NCBI GenBank assembly: GCA_903844155.1 | Contig: CAIMSU010000198.1 | Coordinates: forward strand, 1 to 42,141 | DNA length: 42,141 nt | Reading direction: 5' to 3' | Origin: an uncultured Pseudomonadota bacterium | GTDB lineage: Bacteria; Myxococcota_A; UBA796; SXON01 | Part shown: piece after piece, positions 22,930 to 34,535 of the stretch | Layout: every line of letters starts with the position of its first letter | Numbering within the stretch: position 1 is the stretch's first letter | The notes under the pieces: generated by a model | The model's input: the letters and a program-made list of their open reading frames with translations, nothing else | Told to the model about the DNA's origin: nothing | Databases searched by the model: none | Position numbers and translations under genes: made by a program

Positions 22930-24087
22930 CTACGACTCGTCCGCTCGCCAGACGGATGCCAACCGCAACAGCTCGGGCGGCACAATCCGCGCGGCCGCCG
23001 CGATGGCCTGGACGATGTCCGCCGCGTGGACGCGGAGCGGGGTGTCGTTGCCAGGAACGTAGACCAACCACTCATCGCTGGTCGGCGCCAGGCGGGCCGG
23101 CGCTGGCGGCTGTACGGGAGGCTCGGCCAGGCGCCGAACCGGGCCGCGCGGCAGGCGGGGCAGCGGCTCCAGGGCCACCAGCCCCTCGCCCGAGCGCGTG
23201 TCCGTGAGGGCTGGGCGTAGACTCCGGGGCGCGGCGGCGCGGGGGAGCGGGGCGGGCGACGGGCGCGATGCTGGCTCGGGTCGCGAAGGCGGCGACCCGA
23301 CGGGCGCGTTGGAGTCCCCGGCGCCGCGAACGGGCTCGCCGCGCACGATCCGCTGCCTACCGTCGCGCTGGCGTACCGGTTGGAGCAACCGCTCGAGCTC
23401 ATCCGGCCCTTGTGAACGGAAAAAATCCCGATCCACCCGGGGCGGCCGCACGACGAATTCGCCGGACGGGCGCGGACGGGGGTCCGCATGGCCCACACCC
23501 CAGCCGCTCGGCCGATGCGCGTTCTCGTCGGTCCGGGCAGGCCGCCGCACGACCTCCAGGTTTTCTTCCACGTGAACCTTCGCGCGCCGACCACGCTTTG
23601 GGCCGCGAATCCACGCTTCCTCTTCCCGGGAGAGGCGTACCCGGCGCCGCTGCACATAGGCAGGGATCGCCAGCCGCTTGCGCTCACCCTGAACGGCCTC
23701 GGGTATGACCCCACCCATCCGCGCGACCACCCGATCCGGTTCGCGGCCAAGCATGTCGCGCAGCCCGCTGAGCTGCGCCACGCCGCCCTCCTCCGTCACC
23801 TCGCGGCCACCGACACGGAGGTTCAGCCGCGCCAGCGCCCGCCGGATCCGCCGCGGCTCGGTATGGAACAGGCGCGCGATCGCCCGGAGGCTGGACGTCG
23901 CGCGCATCCGCTCGGCCTCGGGCCACCATACGCTAAGCTCCGCGGGCTGGTTGGCACTCTCTGCCGCCAACGCCAACGCAAGCACCGCCTCGTCCACGCC
24001 ATAGCGTAGCGCCAACGCGCAGAGTGCGTCGAAGCGCAATGCCGCGACACAGTCATTCCACCAGGCTGCTTCGCGCACGTTCGTCAT
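22930..24087 (-). CDS. predicted DNA-binding protein with several helix-turn-helix-like segments
   Basis: I start at the ATG at 24087 (385 residues); an upstream start to 24132 would cross a dyad in the promoter gap. Residues 14-42, 66-92 and 107-143 each fit a short helix-turn-helix pattern. The second, SLRAIARLFHTEPRRIRRALARLNL, is clearest. A basic GPKRGRRAK stretch (162-170) resembles an AT-hook. A long Pro/Arg-rich, probably disordered region (about 180-330) follows, then a small C-terminal domain (about 335-385) containing a DEWLVYVPGND stretch. No family was recognised. It is divergent from an exported-protein gene across 134 bases, so it may regulate that gene or itself. DsbD follows 76 bases downstream on the same strand. 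Confidence 0.65.
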   Translation of the reverse strand: MTNVREAAWWNDCVAALRFDALCALALRYGVDEAVLALALAAESANQPAELSVWWPEAERMRATSSLRAIARLFHTEPRRIRRALARLNLRVGGREVTEEGGVAQLSGLRDMLGREPDRVVARMGGVIPEAVQGERKRLAIPAYVQRRRVRLSREEEAWIRGPKRGRRAKVHVEENLEVVRRPARTDENAHRPSGWGVGHADPRPRPSGEFVVRPPRVDRDFFRSQGPDELERLLQPVRQRDGRQRIVRGEPVRGAGDSNAPVGSPPSRPEPASRPSPAPLPRAAAPRSLRPALTDTRSGEGLVALEPLPRLPRGPVRRLAEPPVQPPAPARLAPTSDEWLVYVPGNDTPLRVHAADIVQAIAAAARIVPPELLRLASVWRADES

Positions 24088-24089
24088 TC

Positions 24090-24105
24090 GTGAACCGACA
24101 TTCAC
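24090..24105. promoter_or_regulatory. possible operator dyad GTGAA-N6-TTCAC
   Basis: Perfect 5-bp arms around a 6-base spacer lie immediately upstream of the ATG of the helix-turn-helix protein, in the gap to the divergent gene at 24222. ATTC/GAAT sequences extend the symmetry imperfectly. Its position suggests an autoregulatory site, but chance occurrence is possible. Confidence 0.3.
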
Positions 24106-24221
24106 ACGGAATAGCACGACGGGGCGTCCCACGCTTGTCGCATATTATCTTCTCACGCAGTCCGCAGCGCGGGGCGCCAGCGGCCCGCGTCCGAGGGCCG
24201 GAGTTTGATACCCGGGAAGCC

Positions 24222-25736
24222 ATGCCCCGCGCCCTCGCCCGTCCGCCCCTTCGCGCCCTCGCCCGTCCGCTCCTCGGCGCCCTCGCCGCAGGCACCTGCA
24301 CCCTCGCGCTGGCCTCGCCCGACTCCGCGCTCGCCCGCCTCGACATCCTCTCCAAGGCCTGGTGGGACGACCAGACCGTCGGCCGCACCGTCACCCAGGG
24401 GCAAATCGCGCCCCCGGCTCGCCCGCTGACGCTCCTCGACGGCGAACGCGCCGACCCGACCACATGGCTGGCGCTCAACCTGATCCTCGGCCTCCAACCT
24501 GCCGACCGCTGGCGTGTGTCCAACGGGCAGACGTTCGTGCAACGGTCGCCGGACGCGGACGAGCTGCGGCTGATGGGCGACCTGGGGGCTCGAGTCGGCC
24601 TGAAACACCCGAAGACCTTCGAGATCCGCACGGAGGCGAGCACGATCGTGTGGGTCGGCCTCTCGACGACGAACGGGACGGTCGACGTGCCGGTAGCCTG
24701 GCCGGCGGACTGGCGGACCGTCGAAGCCGCTCGGGCGATGCATGAGGTGGGGCTGCCATCCCCGACGTTGCAGGCCACCGGCCTGGTGGATCCGAGCTTT
24801 GAGGACGAGCTCGCGGAGCGCGTGGCGTGGTGGACGGAAGGGACGACGGTGCTGGACGCGGCGCGCACGTCGCTTGGCGCCCACTCGGTGCAGCTCGAAG
24901 GCCAAACGGCGCTCTACCAGCGCGTTGCCGTCAGACCGGGCGTGAGCGTGACCGTGCACGCGAAGCTGTGTGCCCAGGGCAGCGCGGTCACCGAGTCGCT
25001 GGTCTGGGAGGATGAAGCCGGAAAGGTGATCGGCAAGAAGCATAGCGAGCCGGTCTCGGACCAGGCGTGGCAGGACGTCGCCCTCGTGGAGACAGCACCT
25101 GCGGGCGCTTTCGCCGTCGAGGTCCGGTTCGACGCGACGGGCGACGGTTTTGCCAATGCCGACGACGTGCGCTTCACGCGGTCGGACGTAGCTGCCGGGA
25201 CCGGTCCGCACCGGGTCGTCCGCGCGTGGGCCGGAACGGCCGTGCGGCTCTTCGCCGACCCCGCGGAGGTCCCCGACGCCGAGACCCACCTCACGCACAT
25301 CGACCAGGCGGTTCGCGGCGCCCTCGGCCTGCTCGGTCAGCCCACCGCCAGCGTCGTCGACATCCACTTCGCCACCTCCGTCGTGGACGCAGGGGGCGAG
25401 GCGGCCTGCATCGCCGCTACGGACGCGGACGCCACGGCCTGCGTGCTCCGGCAGGACCTCCAGGCGCTCTGGGGCGCCCCGGGAAACCCCCTGTTTGCGG
25501 CTGCTTTCTCCGCGGCACTCTCTGGAGCGGATCTGCCCCCCCAGCAAGGCGACCTCGATGCCGGCCTGCGTTGGACGACCGGACCGCCGCCAGCCTCCTG
25601 GGTGAGCTTCTCGCGATGGCTCCTCGATCAATACGGCACGGCGGCCGTGCGCGCCGCCTGGCAGAGCGCGGACCTGCAGGCCTTCAAGGCGGGCCGAAAA
25701 ACCCTCCCCGAGCTGGAGCGGGCGTGGCGGCAATGA
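24222..25736 (+). CDS. exported protein with a galactose-binding-like jelly-roll segment
   Basis: The ATG at 24222 gives 504 residues with a signal peptide that has an Arg-rich start and ends near ALASPDS. The longer frame from 24024 covers the divergent promoter gap and the other gene, so I reject it. Residues about 185-320 fit a carbohydrate-binding-like beta-sandwich (DPSFEDELAERVAWWTEG, then a TSLGAHSVQLEG stretch and QRVAVRPGVSVTVHAKLC), of the kind found in extracellular enzymes and adhesins. The C-terminal third (about 330-504) looks like the helical part of a secreted peptidase-like domain, but has no HExxH or other catalytic motif I can see. Function unknown; probably extracytoplasmic. 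Confidence 0.75.
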   Translation: MPRALARPPLRALARPLLGALAAGTCTLALASPDSALARLDILSKAWWDDQTVGRTVTQGQIAPPARPLTLLDGERADPTTWLALNLILGLQPADRWRVSNGQTFVQRSPDADELRLMGDLGARVGLKHPKTFEIRTEASTIVWVGLSTTNGTVDVPVAWPADWRTVEAARAMHEVGLPSPTLQATGLVDPSFEDELAERVAWWTEGTTVLDAARTSLGAHSVQLEGQTALYQRVAVRPGVSVTVHAKLCAQGSAVTESLVWEDEAGKVIGKKHSEPVSDQAWQDVALVETAPAGAFAVEVRFDATGDGFANADDVRFTRSDVAAGTGPHRVVRAWAGTAVRLFADPAEVPDAETHLTHIDQAVRGALGLLGQPTASVVDIHFATSVVDAGGEAACIAATDADATACVLRQDLQALWGAPGNPLFAAAFSAALSGADLPPQQGDLDAGLRWTTGPPPASWVSFSRWLLDQYGTAAVRAAWQSADLQAFKAGRKTLPELERAWRQ

Positions 25737-25787
25737 GCCGTCAGTGGAAAGCCTTTCAGGTCCGCGCCGCTCGCGGGTCCAAGCAAT

Positions 25788-26426
25788 GTGATGGCTGAAT
25801 TCGCCAACCCCCCGACTCCGCTCCCCGCCGGTCCATCCGCCGCCGAGATGGAGGCGTTGTACCGGCGATACGCCCCGGTCCTGCACGCCCGCGCACGCAG
25901 CATCCTCGGCAGCGACGAGAGCGCCGCGGACGCCGTTCAGGAGACCTTCGCCCGGGTGATCCGCCACTGGGCCGAGTTCCGCGCCGAGGCCTCGCCGCTG
26001 ACGTGGATGTACCGCATCAGCACGAACTGGTGTTTGAACCAGCTCCGCAACCACAAGGGACGGTCGCGCAAGCACACCGACCACAAGGACGAGATCCAGC
26101 CCGGATCCACCGAGGATCTGCACGGCTACGACCCCGTCGGCGGCCTCGACGCGCCAACCATCCACCGCCTCCTGGACGGCGCCGACGACCAGACCCGCCG
26201 CATCATCATCCACCTCTATTTTGACGACCTCACCCGCGACGAGACCGCGCGCCTCGTCGGCATCTCCCAGCCAACCTTGCGAAAGCGCCACGACGCCTTC
26301 GTCGATCACGCCCGACGCACGCTCGGCATCGTGCTGACCACCGCGGTCACCTTCCTCGCGATCCGCTTGCTGACAGGGCCGCTGGCCGCGATCGCGCTGG
26401 ACCACGCGCTTCGGGGCCAGCCATGA
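25788..26426 (+). CDS. ECF sigma factor with a C-terminal membrane helix
   Basis: The 212-residue protein (GTG at 25788 or ATG at 25791) has sigma region 2 at about 22-90 (LYRRYAPVLHARARSIL, DAVQETFARVIRHWAEFR, WMYRISTNWCLNQLRNH). Sigma region 4 lies at about 125-178, with the helix-turn-helix segment TRDETARLVGISQPTLRKRH. It belongs to the extracytoplasmic-function group, which binds RNA polymerase core and directs it to stress or envelope regulons. After region 4 there is an uninterrupted hydrophobic run (about 179-204), which would tether the factor to the inner membrane. This is unusual for a sigma factor. Its stop overlaps the start of the DUF4384-like gene (ATGA), so the two are co-translated. 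Confidence 0.9.
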   Translation: MMAEFANPPTPLPAGPSAAEMEALYRRYAPVLHARARSILGSDESAADAVQETFARVIRHWAEFRAEASPLTWMYRISTNWCLNQLRNHKGRSRKHTDHKDEIQPGSTEDLHGYDPVGGLDAPTIHRLLDGADDQTRRIIIHLYFDDLTRDETARLVGISQPTLRKRHDAFVDHARRTLGIVLTTAVTFLAIRLLTGPLAAIALDHALRGQP

Positions 26427-27394
26427 AACCCCTCAACGACGGCTCCCGCCCCTCCCGGCTCGCGCAGGCACGCGCGCTGACCGGCGAGACGGACGACGCG
26501 ACCACCGTCGACCCACAATTCGCCGTAACCATCGCCGCTTCCTCCCCTCCTCCCTTCAACTTCACCTCCCTCACCACCCTCGCCGCAACCCTCCCCCCCG
26601 ATGCCCCACAACTGCGGAGAGCAGATCTGGTACATCCGGACCCGCCCGCGGATGTACCACAAATGGTCTCCGCAGTTGTGGTAGATCCCGACGGACAGGC
26701 AGATGTACCACAACTGGTCTCTGCAGTTGTGGTAGATCGGAAGGGCGCTGCGGGGCGGGCGAGGCCGGCTCGGCAAACGTGGCTTGGACCGCTCAAAGGG
26801 GCCGATCGCTCCGACGCGATGGCGGGGACGCGGAAGGGTGGTTGGCGCAGCTGGGCGCCCGGTCTGGTGCTCGCAGCCGGGATGGCGTTGGCAGTCTTCG
26901 TCATCAACGCGCCGGACCCCCGACACAATCACCTCAAGGGCGGCGAGAGCGACCTCGGGTACTACGTTCAGCACGACGGCAACGTGCTCCCCGGCGATCC
27001 GTCAACGCCCGTGCAGGCCGGCGACGCCATCCAGTTCACCTACCGCACGACCGCCACCCGCATGATCCTCCTCTCCGTCGACGCTGGCGGCACCGTCACC
27101 GTGTTCTGGCCCGCCCACGCGAATGGCACCGATCACGGCGTGGACGTGATCCCCGGTGAGCGGCACGTGCTCGACGGCTCGATCGTGCTCGACGACGCAC
27201 CCTCGCCGGAGGTCTTCGTGGGGTTCTTCGGCGACTGGACCGTCGACGAGGCGAAGACTCGAGCCGAGGTCACGTTCGCCAGCGCCGGGATCGACGGGAT
27301 CGCGAGCTGGGGGCGGTCGCCCGACGTCCGCGACGAGGGCGGGACGGAGCCCGGCAACGCCGTCGCCACCGTCGTGATCGAGAAGGCAGAGTGA
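26423..27394 (+). CDS. single-pass membrane protein with a DUF4384-like exported domain
   Basis: The 323-residue protein has a cytoplasmic, Pro-rich N-terminal part (1-142) and one transmembrane helix (about 145-163). The exported beta-rich domain (about 175-290) contains AGDAIQFTYRTTATRMILLSVDAGGTVTVFWP, the pattern of the DUF4384 family. It stands where an anti-sigma factor is normally encoded, but has no zinc-finger or other anti-sigma motif. Anti-sigma action is therefore a hypothesis from gene order. Residues 61-111 are three 17-residue repeats (DVPQLVSAVVVDRKGAA-like) encoded by the palindromic 51-bp repeat. The stop overlaps the caspase gene start (GTGA). Confidence 0.75.
   Translation: MKPLNDGSRPSRLAQARALTGETDDATTVDPQFAVTIAASSPPPFNFTSLTTLAATLPPDAPQLRRADLVHPDPPADVPQMVSAVVVDPDGQADVPQLVSAVVVDRKGAAGRARPARQTWLGPLKGADRSDAMAGTRKGGWRSWAPGLVLAAGMALAVFVINAPDPRHNHLKGGESDLGYYVQHDGNVLPGDPSTPVQAGDAIQFTYRTTATRMILLSVDAGGTVTVFWPAHANGTDHGVDVIPGERHVLDGSIVLDDAPSPEVFVGFFGDWTVDEAKTRAEVTFASAGIDGIASWGRSPDVRDEGGTEPGNAVATVVIEKAE
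26600..26738. repeat. three palindromic 37-bp elements at a 51-bp period, in frame
   Basis: Copies lie at 26600-26636, 26651-26687 and 26702-26738, each separated by 14 bases. The third has arms GATGTACCACAACTG and CAGTTGTGGTAGATC around a 7-base loop, pairing except at one position. Copies 2 and 3 differ at two bases. Copy 1 matches copy 2 better when reversed (30 of 37 positions), so its loop is inverted. The array encodes three 17-residue repeats. It is less GC-rich than its surroundings, suggesting insertion of a foreign or mobile palindrome. Confidence 0.9.
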
Positions 27395-28971
27395 CGCCGC
27401 TGCTCCTCGCGCTGCTGATCCCGAGGGCGGACGCCGCGATCCGTCGCTTCGCGCTGGTAGTCGGGAACAACGAGGGCCGGGCGGGCGCGGAGGAACTGTA
27501 CTTCGCCGAGCAGGACGCGAGGAAGATGCAGGATATCTTCACGCACCAGGGCGAGGTCGAGCCGGCCGACCTGCAGCTCGTGCTCGGGGGCTCGCGCACC
27601 CAGGTGCTCGCCGCGCTCGGCGCGCTGAAGGCCAGGATCGCGCAAGCGAAGGCGTCGGGCGACGACACCATCCTCACGTTCTACTACTCGGGGCACGCCG
27701 ACGCGCAGAACCTCGAAGTCGGCCGCACCACGGTGTCCTGGGACGAGCTGGCCGACGACCTCGACCACTCCGGCGCCGACGTGCGCATCGCCTTCGTCGA
27801 CGCCTGCCAGTCCGGCAGCCTCACCCGTCGCAAGGGCGGAACACTCGCGCCAAGCTTCGTTTTTGACGTCCACCAGCGACTCGACGCGTCCGGCTCCGTC
27901 TACCTGACCTCCTCCGCGAGCGACGAGGCGAGCCAGGAGTCCGACACCATCGCCGGCAGCTACTTCACCCACTTTCTCGCGAGCGCCCTGTCCGGCACCG
28001 CGGACGAGAACAACGACGGCCACGTCACGCTCAGCGAGACCTACCGCTACGTCTACCACCAGACCGTCTTCCAGACGTCCGATACCCAGGGCGGGACGCA
28101 GCACCCGACGTACGACTGGGAGCTCTCGGGGACGGGCGACGTCGTCGTCGCGGAGCTTCCCCGGGCGGGCGGAACGCTCACCTTCTCGGCCGCGAACCCG
28201 GGGACGTTCACGGTTTTCGACCCTGACCGGCACCTGTTCATCGCTGAGGTGACCGTCACCCCGGATGCGGACCGCAAGCTGGGCGTGGCCCCTGGACATT
28301 ACCTGGTCCAACGCCGCTACCCGACCTGGCTGGAGGTGCACAAGGTGAGCGTGGCGGCGGGCGCTGAGACCGCGGTCGGCGGGAGCGAGGGGTTTGAGCG
28401 GATGGCCTACGCGAACGACACGGCGAAGGGGATGATCGCCAAGGATCTCAGTCGTGAAAAGCTGCCGCGCATGTCGGTGCGAGCCGTGTTCGGCGGGCGC
28501 GCGTTCGCTGGCGCTGACATCCCGCAGTCCTATCTGCCGGCATCGCCGATGGCCGGTGCAGAAGGCAGGTTCAACTGGCACAAGGGCCCCTGGGCGCAGG
28601 TCGACCTGCTCGCTGGCAGCGGGACGGGCGACATCGCAGTCCCCGGACTCGACTACACGGTCAAGACCAACGTCTCCTCCGCCAGCCTTGGAGCGGGCAT
28701 CGGCTATGCCACACCCGAAGCCCGTTTTCGCGTCGGCGGCGGCCTGCACCTGGAGGGCCTGTACCTCGCCCGTCGCTTTCCGGACGCAGACACGCCCGGG
28801 CAGCACGCGTTCGGGCTCGCTCCGGGCCTTGAAGGCTGGGCCGGCTGGTACCCCGGGCACTTTGAGCTGGAGTTCGAGATGCGAACGCACTATCTACCGT
28901 ACATCGTGGATGATCAGCGGGTCGGCATGGTCTACAACGAGGTCGGCTTGAACCTCGGGTGGCGGTTTTGA
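27391..28971 (+). CDS. exported caspase (peptidase C14) with a C-terminal outer-membrane beta-barrel
   Basis: The 526-residue protein starts at a GTG overlapping the previous stop. A short signal peptide (residues 1-16, TPLLLALLIPRADAA) leads into a caspase-like domain (about 19-260): FALVVGNNEG, then the catalytic His102 in FYYSGHAD and the catalytic Cys139 in AFVDACQSGS. Both catalytic residues are intact. A middle beta-rich part (about 265-350) follows, then from about 358 to the end a run of alternating amphipathic strands ending in Phe, as in small outer-membrane barrels. The protease domain is therefore probably periplasmic or surface-located rather than cytoplasmic. Substrate and activation are unknown. 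The next gene starts inside its stop codon (TTGA). Confidence 0.9.
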   Translation: MTPLLLALLIPRADAAIRRFALVVGNNEGRAGAEELYFAEQDARKMQDIFTHQGEVEPADLQLVLGGSRTQVLAALGALKARIAQAKASGDDTILTFYYSGHADAQNLEVGRTTVSWDELADDLDHSGADVRIAFVDACQSGSLTRRKGGTLAPSFVFDVHQRLDASGSVYLTSSASDEASQESDTIAGSYFTHFLASALSGTADENNDGHVTLSETYRYVYHQTVFQTSDTQGGTQHPTYDWELSGTGDVVVAELPRAGGTLTFSAANPGTFTVFDPDRHLFIAEVTVTPDADRKLGVAPGHYLVQRRYPTWLEVHKVSVAAGAETAVGGSEGFERMAYANDTAKGMIAKDLSREKLPRMSVRAVFGGRAFAGADIPQSYLPASPMAGAEGRFNWHKGPWAQVDLLAGSGTGDIAVPGLDYTVKTNVSSASLGAGIGYATPEARFRVGGGLHLEGLYLARRFPDADTPGQHAFGLAPGLEGWAGWYPGHFELEFEMRTHYLPYIVDDQRVGMVYNEVGLNLGWRF

Positions 28972-29873
28972 GCTGGGTCGTCGCCATCCTCCCGATCCTC
29001 GCCCTGCTGACCGGCTGCGGCGACATCTCCAACGAGGTGTTCACGCAGGACGCCGACTTCGCCGCCGCCTTTCCCGGCGACCAGACGACGACCCTGTCCG
29101 CCCCGGCCGGCGCGACCACCGCGACACCGCCCGACCTCCTCGCCCTCTCCCTCACCGTCGGCACGTCCCTCAACGACACCCTCGCCACCGTGCTCTCCGC
29201 GGTCGACACCGTCCGCGCCGCACCGCCCGCCTCCCGTGACACGACCGCCCGCGCCTGGGGTCCGTACATCTGGGACGGCGCCGACCTGACCGCGCAGATG
29301 CAGCTCACCGGTGGAACGCGATACGACTGGGCGCTCGCCGCGAATTCCAGCGCCTTCGCGTCCGGCAGTCACTACGCGGGCGACACGGTGGCCGCGGGCG
29401 ACGGCAGTTTTGCCTGGGACGCGAGCGCCGAAGCCGCGCAGACCGGCGGCCTCGCAGCCGGCCGGCTCGACGTCACGTACGACAACCGCGACGGCGTGGA
29501 CCTCCTCGTCGTTGAGCAGGGCCTCACGGCCGACCCCGCGACGTCACCGCCTTCCGACGGCACCTACGCCTACGCGCTCACGACCGGCATCGGCGACTTC
29601 CAGTACCGCGCGACGATCCCCGAGCCGGGCTCTCCCGACCTGGCGGTCGCCGCTGAGGTCCACGCCCGCTGGATCGACAACGTCGGGGGACGGGCCGATG
29701 CGTGGCTGGACGGCGGGGATCTCGTGACCGAGGATGTCTGGACGCAGTGCTGGGACGGCACCGGCACGCTCCTGTACGCCTCCGACACCGAGGGCCTCGT
29801 CGACGTCGTCACGGGCGACGGAGGCTCGGCGGCCTGCGCGTTCCACGATCTCGCGCCGGCAGACCGGATCTGA
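28968..29873 (+). CDS. lipoprotein of unknown function in the caspase operon
   Basis: The 301-residue protein begins with a TTG that overlaps the caspase stop; a GTG nine bases upstream in the same frame is an alternative. The signal peptide ends LLTGC with Cys16 (from the TTG). The mature protein is acidic, with many DTT, ADTV and DGTY stretches and predicted beta structure, and has two Cys near the end (QCWDG, SAACAF). No family or catalytic motif was recognised. Fourth and last gene of the sigma/DUF4384/caspase operon, it may be a surface partner of the caspase-barrel protein. Confidence 0.75.
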   Translation: MSWVVAILPILALLTGCGDISNEVFTQDADFAAAFPGDQTTTLSAPAGATTATPPDLLALSLTVGTSLNDTLATVLSAVDTVRAAPPASRDTTARAWGPYIWDGADLTAQMQLTGGTRYDWALAANSSAFASGSHYAGDTVAAGDGSFAWDASAEAAQTGGLAAGRLDVTYDNRDGVDLLVVEQGLTADPATSPPSDGTYAYALTTGIGDFQYRATIPEPGSPDLAVAAEVHARWIDNVGGRADAWLDGGDLVTEDVWTQCWDGTGTLLYASDTEGLVDVVTGDGGSAACAFHDLAPADRI

Positions 29874-29929: not shown

Positions 29930-30907
29930 ATGCGCCAGGTCACCTCCACCGCGTCGGCCCCAGGCCGCATCTGCCTCGTCGGGGAGCACTGCGATTGGGC
30001 CGGCGGCGCCGGGTTGACTGTGCCGATGGACCGATCGGTCCGGCTGGAGTGGCGGGCGACGGGCGAGTCGCCGCGGTTTGGGGCGACGTCCTGGTTCGAG
30101 GGGCGCGAGGCCCGGTGGAACGGCGAGGGCGACCCGGGCCTGTTTCGGCTGATCCCGGCGTGCTTCGACGCGGTCGGCGAGGCGCTGAGCGGGGAGCTGC
30201 GCATCACCGCGGATCTCCCGGCGGGTCGTGGATTTTCCAGCTCCGCTGCCCTTTGTGTTGCGATGGTCCGCGCCCTGCGACCGGGGTGGGACCCGACGAC
30301 GATCGCGGAGGCGGCCTATAGTGCCGAGCGTGCGACCGGGAGCGAGATCGGGCGCATGGACCCGCTGGCGTGCGCCTGGGGTGTGCCCTTGCACCTGCGT
30401 TTTCATGGCGACGCGGTGATCTGCGAACCAGTGGCGGGGCGGTGCGCTCTGGCCGTCGGCGTCTTCCCAAGTCCGCGGGACACCCGGGCGATCCTCACGA
30501 CCCTGAACCAGCATCACGCCGGCGAGGTGAGCTTGCGGGATTGGTCCGCCGTCGCGCGCGTTGGTGCGGTGCGCGGGGCGATCGAGCGGTTCGCGGCTGA
30601 GACGGACCGGGCGACAGAAGCGCTCCGCGACCACGATCTCGCGGTGCTTGGCGGCGCCATGAACGCCTGCCAGGACGTGTACGAGGACGATCTCGTCCCG
30701 TCATTTCCCGAGCTTCGCGCCCCCGGACTCGCGCGTGCCGTGCGGGCATTGCGCGCGGCAGGAGCCCTTGGCGCCAAGTTCACCGGCGCGGGCGGCGACG
30801 GTTCCGTCATCGGCCTCTACGAGCCGGGCAAGGCCGAAGCGGGGGTTCGGGCGCTCGACGCGCTCGGCCTCTCAGCCTTCTGCGTCGAGGTCTGCTCGCC
30901 CGCCTGA
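29930..30907 (+). CDS. GHMP kinase (galactokinase-like sugar kinase)
   Basis: The 325-residue protein has all three GHMP motifs: motif 1 at 9-26 (SAPGRICLVGEHCDWAGG), the ATP-binding motif 2 at 96-108 (LPAGRGFSSSAAL) and motif 3 at 281-297 (GAKFTGAGGDGSVIGLY). The catalytic Asp is probably D144 in GRMDPLACAWG. GEHCDWAGG resembles the galactokinase GEHTDYNGG, so a sugar 1-kinase is the best guess, with mevalonate-type or other GHMP substrates possible. It is cytosolic and not obviously in an operon: the upstream gene ends 56 bases away and the downstream dnaE is convergent. Confidence 0.9.
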   Translation: MRQVTSTASAPGRICLVGEHCDWAGGAGLTVPMDRSVRLEWRATGESPRFGATSWFEGREARWNGEGDPGLFRLIPACFDAVGEALSGELRITADLPAGRGFSSSAALCVAMVRALRPGWDPTTIAEAAYSAERATGSEIGRMDPLACAWGVPLHLRFHGDAVICEPVAGRCALAVGVFPSPRDTRAILTTLNQHHAGEVSLRDWSAVARVGAVRGAIERFAAETDRATEALRDHDLAVLGGAMNACQDVYEDDLVPSFPELRAPGLARAVRALRAAGALGAKFTGAGGDGSVIGLYEPGKAEAGVRALDALGLSAFCVEVCSPA

Positions 30908-30929: not shown

Positions 30930-33900
30930 CTACGCCAGCTTCACGGCGTCTGCCCGACCGAACAGCCCGCGCAACCCCTCGACGAGCTTGGGGGTCGCGC
31001 GCACCCGATGGCCTTCGCCAAGCCGGAGCGTCGCGGTGTAGGTCCCGTCGTCCACCGCCAGCGCCGTCTCGCAATTTCCCGGGTTTGCGGCGATCAGCTC
31101 GACCAGGCGGGTGTAGTTGTCACCCTCCAGCTCATCCGCCCGCACGTGGATCTGCACCGCGTGCGTGCGGTGCTCGCGCAGGTCCTCCATGAGCATGGCC
31201 GTCTCGGCGAGCATCTGGATCGCGTCTCCCTTCCGCTCCAGCTTTCCCGTCACCAGCAAGGGTTTTCCAGCCTCCAACGCTGATTGACACGCCGTCAGCG
31301 GCTTCGAGAAGAACACAGCCTCGACCGTCCCCTGCTCGTCCTCCAGCGTCGCGAACGCCATCTTGTCGCCCTTCTTGGTCTTGATGATGCGCAGCGCGGC
31401 GACCACACCGCACACCTTCGCATCCCCCGTAGTGTCGTCCCGCCGCCGCTGGCCCCCGGACTCCGCCATCGGCAGCCGGTCGAGCTCCGACGTCGGCGTT
31501 GCCCACTTCGCCGCCTCCTCCGCGAACGCCTGCACCGGGTGCCCGGTCAGGAACAGCCCCAGCACCTCCTTTTCGTTCTTCATCCGCTCGCTCACCGGCC
31601 ACTCGCCGATGGCCGGCAGCCGGAACGTGGGCGGGAGCACCTTCGCGCCAAAAAGCCCGACCTGCGACGAATTCTTCCGCTCCTGCACCTCCTGCGCAGC
31701 AGCCATCGCGTCCTCCGCGGATGCCCACATCCGCGCCCGCGGCTCGCCGAGCGAGTCCAGCGCACCGGACTTGATCAGCGCCTCCAGCACCTTCTTGTTG
31801 CACCGCTTCCAGTCGAGCCGGCAGAGCAGGTCGAAGTAGTCCCGGAACGGCCCATCCTGCCGGGCCTCGATCATGGCGACGATCGCGTTGTGACCGATGC
31901 CCTTGAGCGCGGCGAGGCCATAACGGATCGAGCGGCGATCGCTGCGCGGCACATCAAAATCCCGCACCGACGCCTGGATGTCCGGCGGCAGGATCTTCAG
32001 CCCCGCCCGCTTGCAATCCCCAAGGTAGATCAAAATCTTGTCGCTGTCCCCCGCGTCGATCGACATCAACGCGGCCATGTACTCGGCCCGGTGATGCGCC
32101 TTGAGCCACGCGGTCTGGTAGGCGATGTAGCCGTAGGCCGCCGAGTGCGACTTGTTGAAGCCATATTCGGCGAACTTCGCCAGCAGATCGAAGAGGTCGC
32201 TCGCCTTCTGCTCATCGTGGGCCCGGGCGACCGCGCCTGACACGAACCGGCCCTTTTGCTTGGCCATCTCGTTCGCGTCCTTCTTCCCCATCGCGCGGCG
32301 CAAAAGGTCCGCTTCTCCAAGCGAATACCCAGCGAGCACCTGGGCCACCTGCATGACCTGCTCCTGGTAGACGATCGTGCCGTAGGTGCTGCCAAGGATC
32401 CCGGCCAGCTCCGCGAACGGGTAGGTGACCTCCTTCCGCCCATGTTTTCGGTCGATGAAGTCGTCCACCATGCCCGAGGAGAGCGGGCCGGGGCGGTACA
32501 GGGCGACGAGGGCGACGAGATCGTCGATGCAGCTTGGGCGCAGGCGCGTAAGGAGCTCGCGCATCCCCGACGACTCGACCTGGAAGACACCGAGGCCGTC
32601 GCCACGTTGCAGCAATTGCCAGGTGGGCTCGTCCTCGACGGGGATGTTGCCGACGTCGATGCGCTCGCCGGTGTTTCGCTCCACCATCGCCGCCGCGTCC
32701 CGGATCTGGTCCAGCGTCTTCAGGCCCAGGAAGTCGAACTTGATGAGGCCGATGCTCTCGGCCGACTTCATGTCGTACTGGACGACCGGACCGCCTTCGG
32801 GCCCATCGCGGTACAGCGGCGTGAGGGTGACCAGTGGCCGATCCGCGACGACAACGCCGGCCGCGTGCACACCTGTCTGCCGGGTGATGCCCTCGATCCC
32901 GCGCGCAAGCTCCACCACGCGGCGCACCCGCGGGTCGATCCGGCACAATTCGACGAGCCGGGGCTCCTCCTTGAGGCTCTCCTCGATCGTGATGTTGAGC
33001 TTGTTGGGGATGAGCTTGGTGATGTGGTCGCTCTCGGTGAACGAGAGGTCGCAGACCCGCGCCACGTCCTTCAGCGCGGCCTTGGTCTGCAGCTTGCCGT
33101 AGGTGATGATCTGCGCGACGACGTCGCCGCCGTACTTCTCGCGCACGTGCTCGATCACCTCCTCGCGCCGATCCTGGGCGAAGTCGACGTCGATGTCCGG
33201 CATGCTGATGCGCTCCGGGTTCAGGAAGCGCTCGAAGAGCAGGACGTACCGCAACGGGTCGATGTCGGTGATGCGCATCGACCACGTGACCAACGACCCC
33301 GCCGCCGATCCTCGGCCTGGACCGACCGGAATCCCGCGATCCTTCGCCCAGTTGATGAACTCCGCGACGATCAGCAGATACGCCGCGAACCCCATCTTGA
33401 GGATCAACCCGAGCTCGCTCTCCAGTCGCTCATGGTAGTCGCCGTGCTTCTCGGCCGGGATCCCCTTCAGTCTAAGCTCAAGCCCCCGGCGGGCGTACCA
33501 GAAGAAGTAGCCGTTGAGGTTGCCGGCGCCGCTCGGGCGTTCTGGCGCGAGCGTTGGCATCCCGTAGTCGCGCGGCGGCGGGAAGGCGTCGTAGAAGAAC
33601 GCCCAGTTCCGGTCGGTGTCCGCCTCTTTCTCCGCGTCTGGCGGGGTGGAGCTCGGAAAATAGTAGGTGCTCGTGTTGAACTTGAAGTGTGCCCGCTCCG
33701 CGATCGTGCCGGACCGGTCGACGGCATCGAGATCCCCAGCGAACATCTCCCGCATCTGCGCTTCGGACTTCAGAAAGAGCTGATCGGTGCTCGGACGCGC
33801 TCGCTTCGGGTCGTTCATCGACGTGCCCGACGCGATGCAATTCAGCACGTCGAGCATCACGGCGTCGGCGGGCTCGACGTACCGGACGTCGTTGGTGACG

Positions 33901-34487
33901 ACCGTTTGCAGGCCAACCGCCGCCGCGGTCGCCCGCACCTCGGCAAGATAGTCCTCAACGCCCTCCAGCCCGGGGTCGGAGAGCTCACAGTACAGCCGCT
34001 CCGGGCCGAACAACTCGGCCAGCGGCGCAAGACGCTCGAGATTGGACTCCCGCTGCCCCTTGCGGATCGGGCCGAGCGGCCCCGCCGTGAGCGCGATCAG
34101 GCCTTCGTGGTGCTTGCGCAGGAGATCAGGGTCGATCCGGGGCCGGAAGTAGATCCCGTCGAAGATCGCGCGGGTGACGAGCGCGCAGAGGTTTTCGTAC
34201 CCGCGCTGGTCCTCCACGAGCAGCACCAACTGCCAGGCGCCCTGCAGCCCACCCGCGCGGTTCCCAATGCCCCGCGGATCGACCCAGATCTCCGCGCCGA
34301 ACACCGGCGTGACCTCGCTCCCCTTGCAGTTCTTGTAGAAATCGACGGCGCCGTAGAGGTTGCACGTGTCGGTCAGCGCGAGGTGACGCATGCCGAGCGC
34401 CCGCGCGCCCGCGACCAGCTCCTTCGGCGTTGGAACGCCGTTGAGGAGGCTGTACTGGGAATGGACGTGCAGGTGCGCGAAGGCCAT
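30930..34487 (-). CDS. dnaE: DNA polymerase III alpha subunit
   Basis: At 1185 residues this is full length for the replicative C-family polymerase. I start at the ATG at 34487 so that the protein opens with the PHP domain sequence AFAHLHVHSQYSLLNG; the 13 extra codons upstream look non-coding. The polymerase core is intact: GPGRGSAAGSLVTW and the palm PDIDVDFAQDRR around residues 430-440, GVFQVESSGMRELL, YQEQVMQVAQVLAGY and FNKSHSAAYGYIAYQTAWLK. An OB-fold (CGVVAALRIIKTKKGDKMAFATLED) and a C-terminal region follow. The PHP metal site appears degenerate: TDTCN replaces the usual TDHGN, so no PHP-dependent proofreading is expected. The gene is divergent from the YD-like gene. Confidence 0.98.
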   Translation of the reverse strand: MAFAHLHVHSQYSLLNGVPTPKELVAGARALGMRHLALTDTCNLYGAVDFYKNCKGSEVTPVFGAEIWVDPRGIGNRAGGLQGAWQLVLLVEDQRGYENLCALVTRAIFDGIYFRPRIDPDLLRKHHEGLIALTAGPLGPIRKGQRESNLERLAPLAELFGPERLYCELSDPGLEGVEDYLAEVRATAAAVGLQTVVTNDVRYVEPADAVMLDVLNCIASGTSMNDPKRARPSTDQLFLKSEAQMREMFAGDLDAVDRSGTIAERAHFKFNTSTYYFPSSTPPDAEKEADTDRNWAFFYDAFPPPRDYGMPTLAPERPSGAGNLNGYFFWYARRGLELRLKGIPAEKHGDYHERLESELGLILKMGFAAYLLIVAEFINWAKDRGIPVGPGRGSAAGSLVTWSMRITDIDPLRYVLLFERFLNPERISMPDIDVDFAQDRREEVIEHVREKYGGDVVAQIITYGKLQTKAALKDVARVCDLSFTESDHITKLIPNKLNITIEESLKEEPRLVELCRIDPRVRRVVELARGIEGITRQTGVHAAGVVVADRPLVTLTPLYRDGPEGGPVVQYDMKSAESIGLIKFDFLGLKTLDQIRDAAAMVERNTGERIDVGNIPVEDEPTWQLLQRGDGLGVFQVESSGMRELLTRLRPSCIDDLVALVALYRPGPLSSGMVDDFIDRKHGRKEVTYPFAELAGILGSTYGTIVYQEQVMQVAQVLAGYSLGEADLLRRAMGKKDANEMAKQKGRFVSGAVARAHDEQKASDLFDLLAKFAEYGFNKSHSAAYGYIAYQTAWLKAHHRAEYMAALMSIDAGDSDKILIYLGDCKRAGLKILPPDIQASVRDFDVPRSDRRSIRYGLAALKGIGHNAIVAMIEARQDGPFRDYFDLLCRLDWKRCNKKVLEALIKSGALDSLGEPRARMWASAEDAMAAAQEVQERKNSSQVGLFGAKVLPPTFRLPAIGEWPVSERMKNEKEVLGLFLTGHPVQAFAEEAAKWATPTSELDRLPMAESGGQRRRDDTTGDAKVCGVVAALRIIKTKKGDKMAFATLEDEQGTVEAVFFSKPLTACQSALEAGKPLLVTGKLERKGDAIQMLAETAMLMEDLREHRTHAVQIHVRADELEGDNYTRLVELIAANPGNCETALAVDDGTYTATLRLGEGHRVRATPKLVEGLRGLFGRADAVKLA

Positions 34488-34520
34488 ACGGAGGGCTAAT
34501 CGGACGCCGTGTGGCGGGTA

Positions 34521-34535
34521 GGACAAATTCTGTCC
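34521..34535. promoter_or_regulatory. possible operator dyad GGACA-N5-TGTCC
   Basis: Perfect 5-bp arms around AATTC lie in the 74-base divergent gap between dnaE and the YD-like gene at 34562. Its position allows it to act on either promoter, but no regulator can be assigned. Confidence 0.3.

Follow-up and report, generated by a model that had tools for sequence, protein, structure and literature searches.

Caspase-type proteases are best known from cell death and their bacterial homologues are usually discussed as death effectors; we know of no substrates for most of these homologues. What role could such a protease play when it is exported and encoded in one operon with an ECF sigma factor? 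The question is raised by contig CAIMSU010000198.1 (assembly GCA_903844155.1), analysed as a whole stretch of 42,141 nt, hereafter the window, which carries four plus-strand genes between 25788/25791 and 29873. Their products are, in order, an ECF sigma factor, a single-pass anti-sigma-family protein, an exported caspase-barrel protein and a lipoprotein (Table 1). The original prediction, made from the letters of the window, had suggested a relay in which the caspase and the lipoprotein sense envelope damage and pass the signal through the membrane protein to the sigma factor, perhaps by cleavage.

Table 1. Coordinates of the operon and of its features in the window; a slash marks the candidate scissile bond
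Feature	Position	Strand	Basis or remark
Promoter-like element CTTTC-N17-GGGTC	25753..25779	+	CTTTC 25753-25757, GGGTC 25775-25779, before the sigma gene
Gene 1, ECF sigma factor	25788..26426	+	Sigma70_r2 5e-17, sigma70-ECF 2.8e-20; conserved first gene
Hydrophobic C-terminal tail of the sigma factor	26328..26423	+	possible membrane tail anchor
Gene 2, anti-sigma-family protein with DUF4384-like exported domain	26423..27394	+	zf-HC2, antisigma and DUF4384 matches of relatives
N-terminal cytoplasmic helices of gene 2, residues 12-56, degenerate anti-sigma domain	26456..26590	+	pLDDT about 90
Palindromic repeat in the disordered linker of gene 2	26600..26746	+	translated in frame; species-specific
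TM helix of gene 2, residues 145-161	26855..26905	+	AF2 helix; hydrophobic window 2.34
Candidate site-1 cleavage site K172-G173 (NHLK/GG), periplasmic stalk of gene 2	26936..26941	+	stalk motif statistics
Gene 3, exported caspase (C14-like) with outer-membrane beta-barrel	27391..28971	+	profiles, AF2, Foldseek
Catalytic His102 of gene 3	27694..27696	+	invariant 43/43
Catalytic Cys139 of gene 3	27805..27807	+	invariant 43/43
Candidate self-processing site K148-G149 (TRRK/GG) of gene 3	27832..27837	+	9 residues after the catalytic Cys
Eight-stranded outer-membrane barrel of gene 3, ends GWRF	28468..28968	+	strands 360-525
Gene 4, lipoprotein	28968..29873	+	lipobox LTGC, Cys17 at 29016-29018; otherwise unnamed family

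Layout and conservation of the operon

All four open reading frames described in the original prediction are present, as are the three stop/start overlaps of 4 bases that join them (ATGA at 26423-26426, GTGA at 27391-27394 and TTGA at 28968-28971), and such overlaps are seen again at most junctions in most orthologous loci. Sigma-70-type promoters and intrinsic terminators were searched for and none was found. Directly upstream of the operon, positions 24024-25736 encode a secreted-looking protein without a match in Pfam and NCBIfam searches, conserved mainly in the genus; kept in the genus and weak in one other genus, it was excluded as a fifth operon member. Downstream lies a gene for a GHMP kinase (mevalonate/galactokinase-like, 29930-30907), followed on the opposite strand by one for a DnaE-like DNA polymerase III alpha (30930-34526, called by eye).

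Relatives were collected by whole-genome search and from named genomes, comprising Myxococcota MAGs, Archangium, Pyxidicoccus, Sorangium, an Anaeromyxobacter MAG, two spirochaete MAGs and one acidobacterial MAG; the genome-wide counts given below come from pattern searches of the genome. Among 92 distinct caspase loci, 89 contain the anti-sigma gene and 82 the sigma gene too, and several of the loci that depart from the full sigma/anti-sigma/caspase order are situated at contig ends. Homologues that are usually unlinked had been named beforehand as a finding that would speak against the relay; with the order kept at 82 of the 92 loci, the model survives. These loci are mostly found in Myxococcota, including the cultured myxobacteria Archangium lansinium, Pyxidicoccus fallax and Sorangium cellulosum. 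The lipoprotein gene is retained in most of the barrel-type loci, and the more distant paralogues keep the sigma, anti-sigma and caspase genes, the barrel end being swapped for other C-terminal modules. A second, divergent subfamily of the caspase cassette (L269-L298), with the active-site motifs GHGT/DTCHNGR, is present in most genomes of the family; its copy in the genome studied is L290 (G000:C154:35205-36764). It is also worth mentioning the locus L243 (G050:C116), in which a Ser/Thr-kinase-like gene takes the place of the caspase gene behind the sigma and anti-sigma pair, with RTKG still present in the stalk of the anti-sigma protein.

The gene products and the promoter-like element

The sigma gene starts either with GTG at 25788 or with ATG at 25791, and its product contains regions 2 and 4 only, with no region 3, as is typical of ECF sigma factors. 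The Sigma70_r2 profile and that of the NCBIfam sigma70-ECF superfamily score above cut-off, in agreement with the sigma factor originally predicted, and the r4_2 profile, at 2.3e-4, scores below it. A hydrophobic tail after sigma region 4 (13-aa window, Kyte-Doolittle mean >1.5) was found in 31 of 38 orthologues and may possibly serve as a membrane tail anchor.

The promoter-like element in front of the sigma gene had been overlooked in the original prediction. Its more general form, TTT[CTG]-N16-18-G[GT]GTC, is carried by 28 of 37 orthologues ahead of the sigma gene, compared with a mean of 0.35 and a maximum of 4 in 300 dinucleotide shuffles and with 0 on the reverse strand. The stringent form occurs once in its own 8.1-Mb genome, at the operon studied, and 13 times in 20 genomes of the family, at least 7 of these occurrences being at the orthologous operon. 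Being conserved and, in its stringent form, single in its genome, the motif fits an autoregulatory ECF promoter, which it probably is, and a small regulon, its distribution leaving unproven which sigma factor reads it. We estimate that chance matches would drown out a looser form of the motif.

The identity of the second gene product comes from its relatives, as a direct search of the window protein against Pfam and NCBIfam gave no family match and a fold search returned just weak matches to Wzt-type beta-sandwiches. The NCBIfam profile 'anti-sigma factor' matches 10 of 36 orthologues (best 7.5e-7), zf-HC2 scores above cut-off (1.7e-5) in the L111 paralogue, and the zinc-ligand motif HxxxCxxC near the N-terminus is kept in the distant members L103, L104, L105, L109, L111, L112 and L114. 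The window protein is devoid of zinc ligands, and the zinc-binding (ZAS) character is thus one of the relatives, not of the window copy. The gene lies directly downstream of the sigma gene, is coupled to it through ATGA and encodes a single TM helix, which is the layout of class I anti-sigma factors. In the AF2 model the N-terminal helices are followed by a disordered linker, the TM helix, a flexible stalk and a beta-sandwich (residues 177-319). The designation 'DUF4384-like', already given to this protein, holds for its family, since DUF4384 (PF14326) is matched at E<=1 by 16 of 36 orthologues (best 7.9e-6), the window protein taken alone having no such match; its membership of the anti-sigma family had been missed. 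Judged by its relatives, gene 2 is a member of that family, and the relay, originally left undefined, would therefore be a sigma/anti-sigma switch.

The disordered linker also contains a palindromic repeat, which we take to resemble the Rickettsia palindromic elements, made up of three 37-nt copies at a spacing of 51 nt, with arms 88% complementary. About 79 copies of its core are found in its own genome versus 7-19 in relatives, which is near the control level. The same element is inserted in nadD of this genome (L003, G000:C119:14881-14979) in the same reading frame as in gene 2, the match of NadD to TIGR00482 (1.8e-27) being split around the insert.

The third gene product is the caspase, with its catalytic His and Cys, of the original prediction. 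Peptidase_C14 (PF00656) scores 6.9e-13, above cut-off, and is matched by 38 of 38 orthologues, so that the protein combines the caspase fold with the His-Cys dyad of the C14 family, for which proteolysis after a basic residue is predicted. For the EACC1-associated caspases (NF047832) it scores 61 bits, compared with the 140 required. A phmmer search against the PDB gave no match and fold comparison was needed: in the AF2 model (mean pLDDT 87.7) the N-terminal half was matched by Foldseek to legumain, metacaspase and caspase, and the C-terminal half, an eight-strand barrel, to OmpA, OmpX and NspA (OmpA, 9fzd_A, 2.1e-8; NspA, TMt 0.77). OMP_b-brl is matched by 5 of 38 orthologues, the C-terminal Phe is found in most of them, and an eight-stranded barrel ending in an aromatic residue is characteristic of the OmpA/OmpX type. 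The N-terminus of the window protein is signal-peptide-like (MTPLLLALLIPRADA), and the signal-peptide-like N-termini with A-x-A sites, together with the C-terminal barrel, support the predicted export of the caspase. Given the even number of strands and the C-terminal Phe, both ends of the barrel are expected on the periplasmic side, and the caspase domain with them.

The fourth product gave no match in Pfam and NCBIfam searches; it is nevertheless recognizable as a lipoprotein, as had been proposed, by the lipobox Cys, invariant in 32 of 32 orthologues, and the motif CGxxSNxxFxED is conserved.

Basic-glycine sites of the caspase and of the anti-sigma protein

The K-G pair downstream of the catalytic Cys, a candidate site of self-processing, is invariant in 43 of 43 orthologues. 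In the larger set of 92 caspases, K-G/T is present in all 92 and R.K[GT] in 82, positioned 9 residues past the Cys or, in two of them, slightly more. The only stretch of the gene 3 model with pLDDT <50, residues 149-160, starts at the K148-G149 bond. Animal caspases process themselves in the linker following the p20 domain, and the characterised C14 peptidases other than animal caspases cut after Arg/Lys (PMC5756287).

The same kind of site is found in the periplasmic stalk of the anti-sigma protein, likewise in a flexible segment modelled with low confidence. R.K[GAS] is present in the stalks of 63 of the 89 linked anti-sigma homologues, compared with a mean of 3.1 and a maximum of 10 in shuffled stalks, and KG in 72 of them (shuffled mean 16.1); the window protein has His, not Arg, at P3, and the stalks of L098 and L102 have no basic-Gly. 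In the second caspase subfamily the loop reads [LFM]-R-G-E (LRGE/FRGE), with R-G in place of K-G, and the anti-sigma stalk reads [LM]-V-x-R-G (LVPRG, MVERG), R-G thus being found at both places in nearly all of approximately 26 loci. We also considered whether P3 (Arg or not) co-varies between loop and stalk (Fisher p=0.0018 across loci) and discarded this as confounded by descent; the tree of the caspases contains just two independent changes at P3, and the co-variation is then not significant.

The resemblance of the two sites could be a coincidence with no functional link, with the K/R-G of the stalk as a structural feature bordering the DUF4384-like domain and that of the caspase, K-G, as part of its self-processing or active-site loop. 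The position of the stalk motif, immediately before the first strand of that domain, agrees with this explanation, as does the K/R-G retained by three unlinked relatives, two with R.K[GAS] (L243 and L251) and one with R-G (L121). A structural edge fits less well with the low pLDDT at the stalk site and with the distribution of the motif: R-x-K-G is absent from the DUF4384 proteins unlinked to caspases (0/13), basic-Gly is missing at the stalk position of the unlinked homologues L229, L230, L232, L264 and L265, and R.K[GAS] is less frequent in the unlinked anti-sigma-like relatives (2/8) than in the linked ones (Fisher p=0.015). We consider such a coincidence improbable; shared by loop and stalk, the basic-Gly site strengthens the case for a relay by cleavage.

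The candidate relay and its known counterparts

The explanation that we favour, and regard as reasonably probable, is that the operon forms a self-contained switch for envelope signalling: the caspase, tethered to the outer membrane, would undergo self-maturation and serve as the site-1 protease of the anti-sigma protein, freeing the sigma factor, which would amplify the operon. The product of gene 2 would keep the sigma factor at the inner membrane; in it a cytoplasmic N-terminal anti-sigma domain is joined through a single membrane helix and a short flexible stalk to the periplasmic DUF4384-like beta-sandwich. The catalytic domain of the caspase would be suspended in the periplasm from its barrel. 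Upon some signal the caspase would cut itself after Lys148 and, as site-1 cleavage, cut the stalk of the anti-sigma protein after Lys172; proteases of the RseP type (M50, site-2) and of the cytoplasm would finish the anti-sigma protein, and the freed sigma factor would use the CTTTC-N17-GGGTC promoter to transcribe the operon that encodes it. M50/RseP-like proteases are present in the genome. Cleavage as the means of the relay is thus the part of the original prediction that gained strength; no support was found for the guesses that envelope damage is the signal and that the lipoprotein, whose part in the relay can only be surmised, acts as a sensor.

The caspase might, conversely, be the output of the switch: the DUF4384-like domain would sense, another site-1 protease would cut, and the sigma factor would induce an executioner caspase and the lipoprotein, leading to self-damage or altruistic death. 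With the stringent promoter form confined to this operon, the caspase and the lipoprotein are indeed the main predicted targets, and proteins with a caspase fold frequently serve as effectors in the conflict systems of bacteria (PMC8195603). An executioner role is nonetheless unlikely in our estimation, as it leaves unexplained the site shared by loop and stalk and the matching change in the second subfamily, and the defence-system library PADLOC gave just a marginal caspase match (0.001). It is very improbable, finally, that no proteolysis of the anti-sigma protein takes place, the caspase domain being a regulatory binding partner or having its substrate in the lipoprotein or in other proteins of the envelope. 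For many caspase homologues of bacteria no substrate is known, and the lipoprotein gene adjoins that of the caspase, but the invariance of His and Cys argues against its role being purely structural, and the stalk motif would again be left unexplained.

The relay proposed here, with the caspase as site-1 protease, has partial counterparts among known systems. In type III-E CRISPR systems the caspase-fold Csx29 (TPR-CHAT) cleaves Csx30, an inhibitor of the ECF sigma factor CASP-sigma (PMC10028731). Both there and here one locus encodes a caspase-fold protease together with the inhibitor of an ECF sigma factor, and transcription follows once the inhibition is relieved, the cleavage and the response being predicted in the present case; Csx29, however, is cytoplasmic and activated by RNA via Cas7-11, whereas the caspase described here is exported and anchored in the outer membrane, and its anti-sigma protein is a membrane protein. 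A CRISPR-associated protease system was rejected, as neither a TPR-CHAT nor a Cas gene is found in the operon or the flanking genes examined and the protease is of the C14 type with a barrel. With the E. coli sigmaE-RseA-DegS-RseP relay the operon shares an ECF sigma factor, a single-pass anti-sigma protein with a periplasmic part, an M50 protease in the genome and, in the caspase, a candidate for the periplasmic site-1 protease (PMC8103513). DegS is an HtrA serine protease that reads the C-termini of other OMPs, whereas the caspase is fused to a barrel of its own, and the sigmaE relay has RseB where the operon has a lipoprotein (PMC8103513). A likeness of working to the DegS/RseA or Csx29/Csx30 type of relay is the stronger claim, compared with membership of gene 2 in the zinc-binding anti-sigma class.

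Caspases and ECF sigma factors meet in other conserved contexts as well. EACC2-caspase neighbourhoods contain an ECF sigma factor and a DUF1822 protein, and a transcriptional output was proposed for them; EACC2 and DUF1822 are missing from the operon, and the EACC2 caspases have variable C-terminal domains, with no anti-sigma protein or barrel described in the available part of the source (PMC8195603). For the ECF54 group, whose neighbours are subtilase, carboxypeptidase and CHAT proteins, the last of these domains being caspase-related, proteolytic control of the sigma factor was likewise proposed from gene context; ECF54 is, however, placed with the sigma factors that lack an anti-sigma factor (PMC8999054), and the operon encodes a conserved one. 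Gene 3 resembles the orthocaspases and other prokaryotic C14 peptidases in its p20-type fold and His-Cys dyad, with an expected preference for a basic P1, and differs from orthocaspases in its signal peptide, its outer-membrane barrel and its near-constant linkage to sigma and anti-sigma genes (PMC5756287). An outer-membrane caspase with an anti-sigma substrate was not found in the open-access literature searched, an earlier listing among the numbered ECF groups being possible.

The operon, whose gene set is conserved across the phylum, thus points to a specific candidate substrate of a bacterial caspase, to candidate cleavage sites defined to the residue and to an output in transcription. The chances are about even that it represents a widespread Gram-negative class of envelope signalling in which the anti-sigma factor of an ECF sigma factor has a barrel-tethered caspase as its dedicated site-1 protease, in a proteolytic cascade where the caspase matures itself and cleaves its substrate at matched K-G or R-G sites, with several paralogous versions per genome. 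If the relay is real, a protease, a peptide and a promoter reporter could be used to test the role of a large group of caspases, and a caspase would be used as a signal relay from membrane to membrane, or as an envelope sensor.
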